Shown: piece after piece, positions 37,273 through 41,367 of the stretch
Layout of the letters: each line of letters starts with the position of its first letter
Numbering within the stretch: position 1 is the first letter of the stretch
Origin: Thermoanaerobaculia bacterium
GTDB taxonomy: Bacteria; Acidobacteriota; Thermoanaerobaculia; Gp7-AA8
Reading direction: 5' to 3'
NCBI GenBank assembly: GCA_017883235.1
Contig: JADGNY010000020.1
Location: forward strand, 1 to 61,264
Length of the DNA stretch: 61,264 bases
Notes under the pieces: model-generated
Told to the model about the DNA's origin: nothing
The model's database searches: none
The model's input: the letters and a program-made list of their open reading frames with translations, nothing else
Program-made: the position numbers and the translations under genes

Positions 37273-38934
37273 TCAGCGCGTCGTCGAAGTCCCCTGCAAC
37301 GCCGGAGCCGGGGTGTTGCCGACGCCGACCGTTCCCGTCACGGCGAACACCGGCATCTTCTGCTGCAAGCCCTTCAGCGCAAACTCGCCGAGCGACTCCG
37401 TCTCGAAGCTGCCCATGATCCGGTCCATCGTGTTCTGCGAGATGACCACCTGTCCCGGCTTGGCCACGCCGCTCTCGAGCCGGGAGGCGATGTTCACCGA
37501 CGAGCCGAGCACCGTGTAGTCGACGCGCTTTTCCGTTCCGACGTTGCCGACGACGGCCAGGCCGCTGTTGATGCCGACGCGCACCATCACCGGCGGAAGA
37601 TCCGTCCGGGCGCGTTCCACGTTCCACTCGTTCACCATCCGCTGGAGCATCAGGCCAGTCAGCACGGCCCGGTCGGCGTGATCGTCCTGCGGCAACGGCG
37701 CGCCGAAGAAGGCCATCACCGCGTCGCCGATGAATTTGTCGAGCGTTCCGCCGTACGCGAAGATCGACTCCACCGCGCACGAGAAGAAGTGCGACAGGAA
37801 CTCCGCCACTTCCTCCGGCTTCTTCGTCTCCGAGACGGTGGTAAAGCCGCTGATGTCGGCAAAGAGGATCGACACGTCGGTGCTGCGCACTTCTGATTCC
37901 GTCGAGATCGAGCCCTTCACGATCTCGTCGACGACAGCCGGCGAGTGGTAGCGCTCCATGCGCGCGCGGATCTTGCGCTCTTCTTCGATCTTCTCCGCGA
38001 GCTGCGCCCGCTCGATGGCCACGGCGGCGAAGTTCGCCAGCGCCGTCAGCAGGTCGAGGTCCTCTTCCGTGAAGCTGCCGATGTGGATCGGCGAGTCCAC
38101 CTGCACCGCGCCGATGACCCGCTGCCGGTTCCAGAGAGGCACACACATCGCCGAACGAATGCCGTGAATGGCGATCGACTTCCCGCCGAGGAGACGCGCG
38201 TCTTCGAGGGCGTTGGAGGTCATCAGCGCCACCTGCTGCTGCGCAACCATCTTCAGGATCGTGCGCGAGATGGGGATGTCCTGCTGTTCCGCGCCGTCGA
38301 TGAACTTCGTCAGCTTCGGGATCGGATTCCCCTCTTCGTCGAAGAGGATGATCAGCCCGCGTTCGACCGGCAGGTAGCGGAAGATGATGTCCATGACGGT
38401 GGTGAGCACGACCTGCAGTTCTTCAGACGCCAGCAGCGCCTTGGCCACCTGCACCAGGACCTGGAAAATCTTCTCGCGCGACACCGCCGGCTCGCGCAGA
38501 CCAGGCTGCGACGGCGGCCTCGTGACCGGCCCTTTCTCAAGGGCCTCGGAGATGTCCAGTCCGAACTCGGAGTTGAAGTCCGAGATGCGCCGGATGACCG
38601 TGCCCGACGGGTTGTCGAACATCGAGTCGGCGTTGAAATCGACGGACGGCATCGCCCGCGCGTCGAGCAGCACCGACCCGACGGAGATCTTGTCCCCCGC
38701 CGCCACCTGCCCCTCGGCGACCAGGTTCCCGTTGAGCTTCACCCCGTTCGTCGACTTCAGATCGACGATCCACCAGTGCTCCCCCCGCAGTTCGAACTTC
38801 GCGTGCTTCCGCGACACCGAGGGGTGGTTGAGGATCAGATCATTCCCCTCGGTGCGCCCCACCGACAGCTCATCCTTCAGGTCCATGACCCGCGGCACGC
38901 CCAGATCAACGTAGTGAAGTTGGAGCTGCTCCAT
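37273..38934 (-). CDS. FHA-GAF-class III adenylate/guanylate cyclase
   Basis: 553 residues. FHA domain (about 20-90): LSVGRTEGNDLILNHPSVSR, KSTNGVKLNG. GAF domain (about 165-315). Cyclase domain (about 360-530) with metal Asp in SILFADISGFTTVSE, second Asp in DKFIGDAVMAFFGAP, and VGINSGLAVVGNVG with SSVNIASRLE. The FHA domain implies recruitment to phosphothreonine proteins. The product may be cAMP; nucleotide choice cannot be fixed by eye. No kinase gene is adjacent. Followed by lolD. Confidence 0.9.
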   Translation of the reverse strand: MEQLQLHYVDLGVPRVMDLKDELSVGRTEGNDLILNHPSVSRKHAKFELRGEHWWIVDLKSTNGVKLNGNLVAEGQVAAGDKISVGSVLLDARAMPSVDFNADSMFDNPSGTVIRRISDFNSEFGLDISEALEKGPVTRPPSQPGLREPAVSREKIFQVLVQVAKALLASEELQVVLTTVMDIIFRYLPVERGLIILFDEEGNPIPKLTKFIDGAEQQDIPISRTILKMVAQQQVALMTSNALEDARLLGGKSIAIHGIRSAMCVPLWNRQRVIGAVQVDSPIHIGSFTEEDLDLLTALANFAAVAIERAQLAEKIEEERKIRARMERYHSPAVVDEIVKGSISTESEVRSTDVSILFADISGFTTVSETKKPEEVAEFLSHFFSCAVESIFAYGGTLDKFIGDAVMAFFGAPLPQDDHADRAVLTGLMLQRMVNEWNVERARTDLPPVMVRVGINSGLAVVGNVGTEKRVDYTVLGSSVNIASRLESGVAKPGQVVISQNTMDRIMGSFETESLGEFALKGLQQKMPVFAVTGTVGVGNTPAPALQGTSTTR

Positions 38935-39150
38935 CGAGGGGGAGATTATAGCGGGTGCGCGCGGAGGCTCTGTCGCGAGAACGGAAGTGATTCGTCGGCA
39001 CGTGAGAACTCGAACAGATCGACCGGGTTCGCACCCGACAAGGCTTCGCGTTTAGGGATCACGGACGCGATACGGGCCGCAGCCGCTGCATTCGGACGCG
39101 CGTTGGGCACGTGCAATACTGCCTGCTATCAAGGCCCAAAGGCGAAGGCA
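38935..39150. other. Intergenic region ahead of the DUF3800 gene
   Basis: The 216 bp between divergent cyclase and DUF3800 genes hold no convincing gene. A short T-arm-like hairpin (CCGGGTTCGCACCCG) lies near 39023-39037. A purine-rich ribosome site (GGCGAAGG) precedes ATG 39151. Nothing else is seen. Confidence 0.5.
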
Positions 39151-39807
39151 ATGTCGCGAAAGTATGTATTTGCGGATGAGTGCGGCAATTTTGACTTCTC
39201 CTCCAAGCCTGGGGCAAGTCGATACTTTATTCTCGTTACGGTAACCGTTGACACGTGCTCGGTGGGGCAGCAACTGCTCGACCTTCGTCGAGACTTAGCC
39301 CTTCAAGGATTCGGCCTCGATCGAGAGTTTCATGCTGCACATGATCCCAAGCCAATGCGGGACAAGGTGTTTGCTGCAATCGCCACCTCGCCGATGCGAA
39401 TCGATGCGGTCATTCTCGAGAAGTCAAAGGCATACCCGTCCGTGCGCGTGAGCGATGAACGCTTTTACAAGACGGCTTGGTACCAGCACATGAAGTACGT
39501 TGCCCCGAAGATCGCCGTATCGACGGATGACCTTCTGGTCGTCAGCGCATCCATCGGATCGAACGCGAAGAAGAGGGCTTTCCACGCGGCAGTAACGGAC
39601 GTCATCCGACAGGTGTCGCCAACTGCCAAGGCCAGGGTGGCAAGCTGGAGCGCTGCGAGTGATCCGTGCTTGCAGGTGGCAGACTACTGCGCATGGGCGA
39701 TTCAGCGGAAGTGGGAAGCGGGAGATCGGCAGGGCTATGACTTGATCAAAGGCTTCGTCCAGACTGAATTTGATCTGTTCGCTTCAGGAACCAGGAAGTT
39801 TTACTAA
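39151..39807 (+). CDS. DUF3800 domain protein
   Basis: 218 residues from ATG 39151. The N-terminal KYVFADECGNFDFSS carries the conserved acidic DE of DUF3800, followed by RYFILVTVTVD, a DREFHAAHD segment and a late ADYCAWAIQRKWE with the conserved Asp. DUF3800 is thought to have an RNase H-like fold and often lies in mobile or defence-associated regions; its activity is not settled. Base composition looks less GC-rich than the neighbours, suggesting transfer. A strongly structured element begins 6 bp after the stop codon. Confidence 0.8.
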   Translation: MSRKYVFADECGNFDFSSKPGASRYFILVTVTVDTCSVGQQLLDLRRDLALQGFGLDREFHAAHDPKPMRDKVFAAIATSPMRIDAVILEKSKAYPSVRVSDERFYKTAWYQHMKYVAPKIAVSTDDLLVVSASIGSNAKKRAFHAAVTDVIRQVSPTAKARVASWSAASDPCLQVADYCAWAIQRKWEAGDRQGYDLIKGFVQTEFDLFASGTRKFY

Positions 39808-39812
39808 AAATC

Positions 39813-39896
39813 GAGACCGGCTACCCGTGTTGCCACGGGAGAGGCCGAAGGGCCTCTTGTCGCCGGTCTCTCTACTAACTCTTGACTTCCGTCAAG
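39813..39896 (+). ncRNA. Three-way-junction RNA candidate downstream of DUF3800
   Basis: A 9-bp closing stem (39813-39821 GAGACCGGC with 39862-39870 GCCGGTCTC) encloses two perfect 6-bp hairpins: 39824-39839 (CCCGTG/CACGGG, loop TTGC) and 39841-39856 (GAGGCC/GGCCTC, loop GAAG). A fourth hairpin follows at 39881-39896 (CTTGAC/GTCAAG, loop TTCC). Every stem is fully paired. Structured RNA motifs named after DUF3800 have been reported in the literature near such genes (Weinberg and colleagues, from memory); a match to a specific one is not verified. The strand is assumed from the neighbouring gene. Confidence 0.6.
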
Positions 39897-39999
39897 TGTA
39901 ACCGATCTCTCAAGCATTATCTGCCCGTGGAGATGAGAAAAAGTCTTGCTCTGACTTTCTGGTTACCACAGTGCTGATCACTTCAGACTCGACCATTAC

Positions 40000-41367
40000 C
40001 TACCCGATCGCCAACCCCTCAATATCCAACTCATGAACCGGCATCCCGAGCGTCCCCAGAGGCTCGCGAATCTGCTCCGCGTTGCCGACGATGACGATGA
40101 TGGCGCGATCGGGGTCGATGTACTTCTGCGCGACGTGTTCGACATCCGTCTTCGACACCGCGCCGATGTTCTCTCGGTAACGGTCGAAGTAGTCGGTGGG
40201 CAGATCGTAGAGCTCCATGTCGAGGAGGCGGCCGGCGATGTCGCTGGAGCTTTGGACGCTCGAGGGGAAGGAGCCCATCATGTAGTTCTTTGTGTCCTCG
40301 AGCTCCTGCGTCTCGACGTCGCCGGTGCGGATGCGGCGGAGCTCGGCAAGGACCTCGGTTACCGACTCGCGGGTGACTTCGTTGCGTACCGGAGCGCTGA
40401 CGACGAAGGGGCCGGCCTGGCGGCGGAAGGCGAACAGCGATCGCGCGCCGTAGGTGTAGCCGTGCTTCTCGCGGAGGTTGAGGTTGATGCGCGAATTGAA
40501 CACGCCGCCCAGGAGCGCGTTCATCACGGAGAGGGAGAAGTAGTCCTCCGTGCTGCGGGCGATGCCGATGTGGCCGATACGGATCTCCGACTGCACCGCG
40601 GTCGGGCGGTCGATGAGATAGATGCGGCTCGATTCGAACGTCTTCGGTGAGACTTCCGGCCGCGGCGGAATGTCGGCGGCGGGCCAGTCGTCGAAGAATC
40701 GCGAGGCCGTATCGAGCGCCGATTCGGTATTGACGTCGCCGGCGATCACGATCGAGCCGTTGTTGGGAACGTAGTGCGTGGCGAAGTAGCTGCGCACGTC
40801 GTCGACGGTGATCCTTGCGACTGACTGGGGATTGCCGATGATGGTGTTGCCGTAGGCGCCGCGTCCGTAGATGAGATTGGAGAAGCGCTTGCCGGCGATG
40901 GAGGCCGGCTCGTCGCGCTGCTGGATCAACTCCATCAGACGCTCGCTCTGCACGCGCTCCAGCGATGCCTGCGGCAGCATCGGACGGCGATTCACATCGG
41001 CGAAGATGGCGAAGGCCTCGGCGAAGGTGCGCGAAAGGGAATCAACTGAGATGAACGACGCGTCCCAGTCGGCGCCGCTGCCGAGGGAGGCGCCAAGTAG
41101 GCCGAGGTCCTCGGCGAGAAGGACGGCGTCGCGGATGCCGGCACCTTCGTCGAGCAGGGCCGCCGTGAGCGAAGCCAGGCCGGCCAGCTCGGGAGTGTCG
41201 AAATCAGCGCCCGAGCGGACGAGCGACCGGACCGAGACGAGCGGCGCGTTGTGATTCTCGGCCACGAGCAGACGCAGGCCGTTGTCCAGCGTGCGGCGGG
41301 CGACGTGCGGGAAGTGATACGGCCGCGGAGGCCCGGGTTGGGGAGCAACATTGCGGTCGAGTGTCAT
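40000..41367 (-). CDS. M16 family peptidase-like protein, non-catalytic subunit
   Basis: 455 residues. M16 fold (RTLDNGLRLLVAENHNAPLVSV), but the HxxEH zinc motif is replaced by LAGLASLTAALLDEG, so it cannot bind the catalytic zinc. It retains the C-terminal Arg/Tyr motif NLREKHGYTYGARS, which helps close around substrate. Together with the next gene upstream it forms the usual two-subunit arrangement of bacterial M16B peptidases. The start overlaps the partner's stop by 4 nt. Confidence 0.9.
   Translation of the reverse strand: MTLDRNVAPQPGPPRPYHFPHVARRTLDNGLRLLVAENHNAPLVSVRSLVRSGADFDTPELAGLASLTAALLDEGAGIRDAVLLAEDLGLLGASLGSGADWDASFISVDSLSRTFAEAFAIFADVNRRPMLPQASLERVQSERLMELIQQRDEPASIAGKRFSNLIYGRGAYGNTIIGNPQSVARITVDDVRSYFATHYVPNNGSIVIAGDVNTESALDTASRFFDDWPAADIPPRPEVSPKTFESSRIYLIDRPTAVQSEIRIGHIGIARSTEDYFSLSVMNALLGGVFNSRINLNLREKHGYTYGARSLFAFRRQAGPFVVSAPVRNEVTRESVTEVLAELRRIRTGDVETQELEDTKNYMMGSFPSSVQSSSDIAGRLLDMELYDLPTDYFDRYRENIGAVSKTDVEHVAQKYIDPDRAIIVIVGNAEQIREPLGTLGMPVHELDIEGLAIG

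Follow-up and report, generated by a model that had tools for sequence, protein, structure and literature searches.

The window, i.e. the whole stretch of 61,264 nucleotides analysed here (contig JADGNY010000020.1 of a Thermoanaerobaculia bacterium), holds an open reading frame at 39151-39807 on the plus strand, with the stop codon at 39805-39807, that encodes 218 amino acids. The frame had been called a DUF3800 gene in the original prediction, and its sole Pfam match is indeed PF12686 (DUF3800, E 6.3e-8). PADLOC DUF3800_VII matches it weakly (E 1.5e-5), PADLOC names being no test of function, and searches of NCBIfam, PHROGs and PDB sequences gave nothing informative. Four nucleotides past the stop codon, on the opposite strand, lies a small three-way-junction RNA of about 60 nt (39812-39871, minus strand). 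The genes converge at this point, the neighbouring M16 peptidase gene being on the minus strand.

The gene and the RNA are part of a segment (38959-39999) that differs from the congener G001, in which homology ends at 38958 and restarts at 40000. The same two flanking genes are found in G001, with about 2.4 kb of different DNA between them. This insert (L194, between 5753 and 8215) contains a gene with AAA_15/AAA_21 domains, for which the best PADLOC matches are AriA. A gene that resembles anti-phage ATPases in the place of DUF3800 suggests that the site is a variable one, occupied by defence-type cargo. The G+C content is 0.55-0.59 at the DUF3800 segment and 0.63-0.69 in the flanking DNA. In a quick tree of DUF3800 proteins, in which 32 of 62 inner branches are weak, the window gene pairs with that of a congener and the next nearest rows are from Gemmatimonadota; the four Acidobacteriota rows require four label changes. 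The rows of the tree come from nine named phyla, with phylum names as in the submitters' titles. The lower G+C, the tree neighbours and the different gene at the site in the sister species support a probable foreign origin of the DUF3800 gene, as had been proposed. Compared with the gene of the congener at L012, the window gene has a dN of 0.020 and a dS of 0.375.

The DUF3800 protein is predicted to be a nuclease with an RNase HII fold. An AlphaFold2 model made with 65 sequences had a pLDDT of 94.5, and below E 0.001 Foldseek matched nothing but two chains of one RNase HII (1eke, E 3.7e-6). With VIA-align, RNase HII, H2 and HIII occupied the first 15 rows (Z 9.2-12.6), the best of them with Z 12.6 and 3.0 A over 164 residues at 13% identity, followed by Argonaute PIWI domains (Z 9.0). 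No RNase HII family was matched by sequence in the Pfam search. Acidic residues are strongly conserved: D9 and E10 in 64 of the 64 rows with a letter, D178 in 65/65 and E90 in 60/65, with the D-E pair placed on the first strand of the model. RNase HII has a catalytic D-E-D-D set, to which D9, E10, E90 and D178 may correspond, judging by their position. Sequences that were interrupted by a stop or a frame break or that matched over a short length were kept out of the protein alignment (A4), as were some near copies. An RNase H fold for DUF3800 is already noted in passages of PMC10910872 and PMC12669027.

Read on the minus strand, the RNA consists of a 9 bp closing stem (39862-39870 with 39813-39821) around two adjacent hairpins, hairpin 2 at 39840-39857 (6 bp plus an A-U pair) and hairpin 1 at 39824-39839 (6 bp). 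The sequence is as first described, with a 9 bp stem closing two hairpins after the DUF3800 stop, and the plus-strand fold of 39805-39910 reaches -49.4 kcal/mol, where shuffled sequences average -28.25 (z -6.15, 0/200 shuffles as low). The minus-strand fold of 39800-39890 gave z -5.31, and the structure is thus well beyond chance. After the closing stem follows an AUUUUUA run (39805-39811, minus strand), a candidate intrinsic terminator tail that overlaps the DUF3800 stop codon. A simple terminator scan found none at 39805-39811, because it allows loops of 3-8 only. All 58 of 58 RNA bases are the same in L012, and no change is seen there in the 71 bases that follow the DUF3800 stop, the aligned DNA around them being 83-87% identical; the region 39872-39925 is largely unchanged as well. 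A DNA repeat was considered and rejected, since the element has one copy in the genome and the 11 other blastn matches are pieces of 14-27 nt.

A protein scan for relatives gave 80 DUF3800 loci, and in most of them a comparable structure was seen by eye after the stop codon. Two RNA models were built, R1 from 21 sequences and R2 from 53 sequences in the corrected orientation. R1 matched 64 sources, of which 53 make up an alignment (A3); it omits the near copies L012, L035, L037, L039, L057 and L086, and also L024, L045, L050, L088 and L090. The R1 search of the window's own genome gave one match. The window RNA scores 56.5 bits with R2 (E 1.3e-10), the window row being one of R2's own. Two further DUF3800 matches in the same genome (L002 and L003, G000) have no Rfam motif nearby (E up to 0.5) and no R1 or R2 match.

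Covariation was found with both models. Double changes occurred at 14 of 24 pairs in R1, where the shuffled mean was 8.6 and 0/500 shuffles were as high. In R2 they occurred at 16 of 21 pairs against a shuffled mean of 13.1, a value that 4/500 shuffles reach and that is one of five measures; the double-change cells numbered 182 against 63 in shuffles, with 0/500 as high. Cells were paired in 88.6% of cases in R2, compared with 32-49% once the partners were slid by one to three columns. The junction letters are fixed in the R2 alignment, GAnA on one side and UAG on the other. Hairpin 1 is variable in sequence, length and loop, and its stem covaries.

The RNA had been taken on the plus strand, and in this respect the prediction was overturned. 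The plus-strand alignment contained 96 A-C and 20 G-U cells, and an A-C cell on that strand is a G-U cell on the minus strand. With near copies dropped the numbers were 81 and 19, and with the single most biased pair removed they were 48 and 19 (p 5e-4, the cells not being independent). The alignment used for this count was fitted to the plus-strand model and leans against the minus-strand result. A sigma-70-type promoter reads into the RNA: in the position bin where the -10 box ends 10-22 nt ahead of the start of the RNA model, 8 of 12 matches are attained at 43 of 70 loci, whereas shuffles had 6.0 such loci on average and 12 at most. The four other position bins held 5-7 loci each, as their shuffles did, and the reverse complement scored at background on average. 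U-rich tails follow the RNA at 20/58 loci on the minus strand against 5/58 on the other strand. The loci L012, L035, L037, L039, L057 and L086 were dropped before the promoter, U-tail, wobble and residue counts; shuffles were dinucleotide in the first hexamer scan and mononucleotide for the promoter-position and inverted-repeat counts. Because of the wobbles, the promoter and the U-rich tails, the most fitting interpretation of the RNA is a small gene of its own that is convergent with DUF3800; an element in the plus-strand 3' UTR of the DUF3800 messenger is rejected, as the wobbles and the promoter speak against it.

In the window itself no canonical promoter for the RNA was found, the best hexamers giving 7 of 12 matches and the promoter scan no site; the corresponding region (39872-39925, minus strand) has weak hexamers only. 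The missing clear promoter is the weak point of the window copy. A downstream GTCAA motif, considered as a mobile-element end or a guide start, turned out to be the -35 box of the RNA promoter, seen on the opposite strand. A further 6 bp hairpin had been reported 10 nt behind the element. The inverted repeat is present (39881-39896) and lies outside the conserved RNA, in what is the promoter region in relatives. In this region 13 of 57 loci hold an inverted repeat whose arms are at least 6 long, compared with 0-5 in ten shuffles; such repeats, which may be operators, occur at L016, L024, L045, L051, L072 and L080, among others, in addition to the window.

R2 finds the RNA at 74 of the 80 DUF3800 loci, 53 of the 81 sources scored with R2 being rows of R2 itself; the loci represent nine phyla, and each phylum has the RNA at one locus or more. 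At 72 of the 80 it follows the gene closely and is encoded on the other strand, and at L077 and L090 it is upstream on the gene's own strand. At the Bacillota loci it is about 150 nt from the gene. Six loci gave no R2 match, namely L047, L081, L048, L059 (16.3 bits), L061 and L089; L047 and L081 lack the RNA because the contig ends at the gene. As a side observation, L036 has a long near-perfect GC-rich hairpin between the stop (3653) and the RNA (3721).

Searches of whole genomes gave the same picture. Among 40 carrier genomes, chosen for the gene, 39 had a match at E up to 0.1, 38 of them with one copy and G456 with two. In 396 genomes of the window's phylum three matches were obtained, the window, the congener G002 and a weak one in G350 (29.2 bits, L165); the last has no adjoining DUF3800 and was taken as chance. 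When 385 alphaproteobacterial genomes were searched with the RNA alone, five genomes had a match, in each case adjoining DUF3800; these were the search centre, G705 (the genome of L085) and G540, G542 and G802, which are outside the 80 loci. Among viral, phage and plasmid loci the RNA was present in 18 of 22 at E up to 0.06, or in 15 of 19 distinct sources since three viral contigs (L174, L177, L180) duplicate genome loci; L183, L185, L186 and L190 gave no match. Gordonia phage Kenna keeps the RNA beside a protein that is 26% identical to that of the window. From the genome and viral searches it follows that the RNA is rare, nearly never found without the gene and retained despite strong protein divergence.

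Some genomes have more than one RNA. Two copies lie side by side in G542, and in L161 two R2-type RNAs (2369-2420 and 2512-2564) lie side by side behind one DUF3800 gene. The second match in G456 (L160:2559-2612, minus strand) is just upstream of an open reading frame (L160:1936-2547, minus strand); the start residues of this frame resemble DUF3800 by eye, but neither tblastn nor Pfam calls it so.

The original prediction of a conserved structured RNA linked to DUF3800 has consequently held, with covariation in homologous loci, the RNA at 74/80 loci and a match in 39/40 carrier genomes; neither a lack of covariation nor an absence beside close relatives was found. That the RNA is real and tied to the DUF3800 gene can be regarded as almost certain, and the pairing of protein and RNA as a conserved unit is well shown by the comparison of loci.

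The setting of the pair is often mobile. Relatives occur on prophages and plasmids, and in phage Kenna the DUF3800 gene overlaps the end of an immunity repressor gene by four bases. Among 148 neighbouring proteins eight match an IS1595 transposase, other families having at most three members. Inverted ends that enclose the gene, the RNA and the transposase were found in L059 (20/20 letters) and L078 (19/20) among 14 loci examined, and weaker ends of 16 of 20 in L049 and L082. Only L059 and L078 are firm, because repeats of 16 of 20 also arise without a transposase. At these two loci the DUF3800-RNA pair looks like a passenger of an IS1595 transposon. There was no common defence neighbour in the 148 proteins, the PADLOC families having one member each among the 25 matches listed. 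Separately, tRNA genes are found directly upstream of DUF3800, one in L013 (2867-2938) and four in L018 (2195-2796), as at integration sites.

Weinberg et al. in 2017 (cited as reference 59 in PMC10910872) reportedly described structured RNA motifs near DUF3800 genes, and the original prediction had pointed to motifs of this sort. When Rfam was run against the window there was no match at the cut-offs; relaxing the limit to E 10 brought up nothing but sub-threshold matches of unrelated families, and mir and the other Rfam matches, all far under the cut-offs, were rejected. The Rfam DUF3800 models, proposed as a check of the element, thus gave no match in the window. The link emerged instead through relatives of the window RNA. 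DUF3800-IX (RF02968, type 'Gene; sRNA', 67 nt) scores 34.9 bits at L161 and 30.9 bits at L184, both below its gathering cut-off of 36.8 bits. No further R2-type RNA among the scanned sources reached RF02968; in a scan of ten more sources L184 was sub-threshold, L166 was a true DUF3800-IX and the other eight gave none (E up to 5). No other Rfam DUF3800 model matched the window or the scanned loci.

The two kinds of RNA share a closing stem, a GA-type junction, two adjacent hairpins, UA, the stem and a U tail, and in G862 and G890 DUF3800-IX likewise sits close behind a DUF3800 gene and opposite to it in strand. They differ in that the DUF3800-IX model misses the window and nearly all of its relatives, while R2 gives the DUF3800-IX RNA of G862 4.9 bits, and in that the cognate DUF3800 protein in G862 belongs to another lineage. 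When RF02968 was run on 296 actinobacterial genomes, three matched (G862, G890 and G925). G862 carries a window-type gene with an R2 RNA (39.2 bits) followed by a DUF3800 gene of the other kind with a DUF3800-IX RNA (53.4 bits), both RNAs holding the same relative place and strand. In G890 the DUF3800-IX RNA is directly behind a DUF3800-like open reading frame, on the other strand, and in G925 no DUF3800 gene was seen next to the match. L169:3361-5394 shows consecutive DUF3800 genes of two lineages, each with its RNA behind it on the opposite strand, the R2-type RNA first and then the DUF3800-IX RNA. The data are read as two sister RNA lineages, each probably tied to a distinct protein lineage; by the cut-off the window RNA falls outside RF02968, of which it is near kin. 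As far as the searches show, small RNAs tied to DUF3800 were already known, while the lineage absent from Rfam, the strand, the promoter, the strict tie to the gene and the mobile spread are new. Titles or abstract openings among the literature matches listed for DUF3800 and PF12686 gave no function for such a pair.

The system resembles type III toxin-antitoxin systems (ToxIN, CptIN, TenpIN) in how it might work only: a U-tailed small RNA gene beside the gene of a predicted nuclease, in a mobile or phage setting. As parts of PMC5086642 describe, the antitoxin RNA of type III systems is a tandem repeat that precedes the toxin gene within a shared operon, with a terminator between the two, and it binds and inhibits a toxic endoribonuclease (ToxN, CptN or TenpN). 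In contrast, there is no tandem repeat in the window at 38900-40100, the window RNA is downstream and convergent, only two of the 74 matched loci (L077, L090) having it upstream on the gene's strand, and the toxin families are unmatched, the predicted DUF3800 fold being RNase HII-like over the whole chain. The DUF3800 nucleases associated with Cas effectors (V-A2, VI-F), described by the authors who noted the RNase H fold (PMC10910872, PMC12669027), belong to the same domain family; they are fused to TPR or have a Cas neighbour, whereas the protein of the window is a stand-alone one of 218 aa with a private small RNA. RNase HII and HIII share the predicted fold, but at 13% identity, and the window system has a partner RNA.

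The preferred reading, with a probability of roughly 0.4 for the whole chain, is that a DUF3800 nuclease and a cognate RNA that controls it form a module for defence or addiction. The RNA would be transcribed from its own promoter, bind the cognate DUF3800 protein and restrain the nuclease like an RNA antitoxin. If the RNA were lost, titrated or attacked, as in phage infection or when the element is lost, the nuclease would be released and would then cut nucleic acid, so that the cell or the invader would be stopped and the module would act as an addiction or anti-phage unit. Direct binding of the RNA to the DUF3800 protein is probable. That it inhibits the nuclease and has no other role is a tentative step, held at a little under even odds. 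The covariation, the strand, the tie to the gene, the predicted nuclease fold with its acidic residues, the mobile setting and the presence of the RNA in Kenna are consistent with the inhibition chain. Against it count the want of a clear promoter in the window copy, the lack of a shared defence neighbour, the six loci without the RNA and the rarity of the element (3/396 genomes). The observation behind the original prediction was confirmed. Its interpretation was partly supported, namely in the conserved RNA tied to DUF3800, the kinship with a known DUF3800 motif and the foreign origin of the gene; a toxin-antitoxin or defence role is a candidate function.

The conservation of the RNA would fit a cofactor or a guide, too. 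TnpB and the IS110 recombinases are RNase H-fold effectors that work with their RNAs, and a DUF3800 nuclease might in the same manner be active only when loaded with an RNA that positions or aims it. The RNase H-type fold, the one single-copy RNA per gene, the fixed junction letters and the varying sequence and length of hairpin 1 agree with such a role, but the -10 box that ends 10-22 nt before the model and the U-run behind the stem in some loci leave little room, and the covarying stem of hairpin 1 suits a structure more than a guide. No long unpaired stretch was seen before or after the stem, the loop of hairpin 1 being variable. As the loci showed no space in which a long unpaired guide could fit, an activating cofactor or guide is less favoured and is considered unlikely, though it is the best placed of the alternatives.

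More doubtful still is a role in cis only, in which the RNA would set the level of DUF3800 by convergent transcription or by pairing with, or stabilising, the 3' end of the messenger. Its position just downstream on the opposite strand in 72/80 loci would agree with this, as would the U-run of the window copy, which abuts or overlaps the stop codon of DUF3800. The structure and the junction letters are, however, kept across very different proteins, a three-way junction is unneeded for antisense pairing, and the Bacillota RNAs are about 150 nt off; the kept structure together with the two cases upstream on the gene's strand (L077, L090) disfavours the reading. That the element is merely a two-way transcription terminator between convergent genes, as the GC-rich stem, the A-run on one side and the convergent genes of the window might indicate, is very improbable in view of a three-way junction with fixed letters, covarying hairpins, conservation in nine phyla, a promoter that reads into the element and the upstream cases.

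Taken as a family, the results point tentatively, with odds also somewhat short of even, to RNase HII-fold proteins (down to 26% identity) that would be restrained or loaded by a private, usually single-copy RNA with its own convergent promoter, that occur in at least nine phyla and on phages, plasmids and IS1595 elements, that comprise several cognate protein and RNA lineages, and that are distinct from type III systems and guided nucleases. If true, this would be a new type of RNA-controlled effector. DUF3800 adjoins several orphan RNA motifs, and one of them is here assigned its strand, its ends, its cognate protein and, in relatives, its promoter. The RNA and the gene are maintained as a unit. 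With a protein of about 220 residues and an RNA of about 70 nt they form a compact target, for which catalytic and junction mutants are easily chosen, and the role of the DUF3800 RNAs thereby becomes directly testable.
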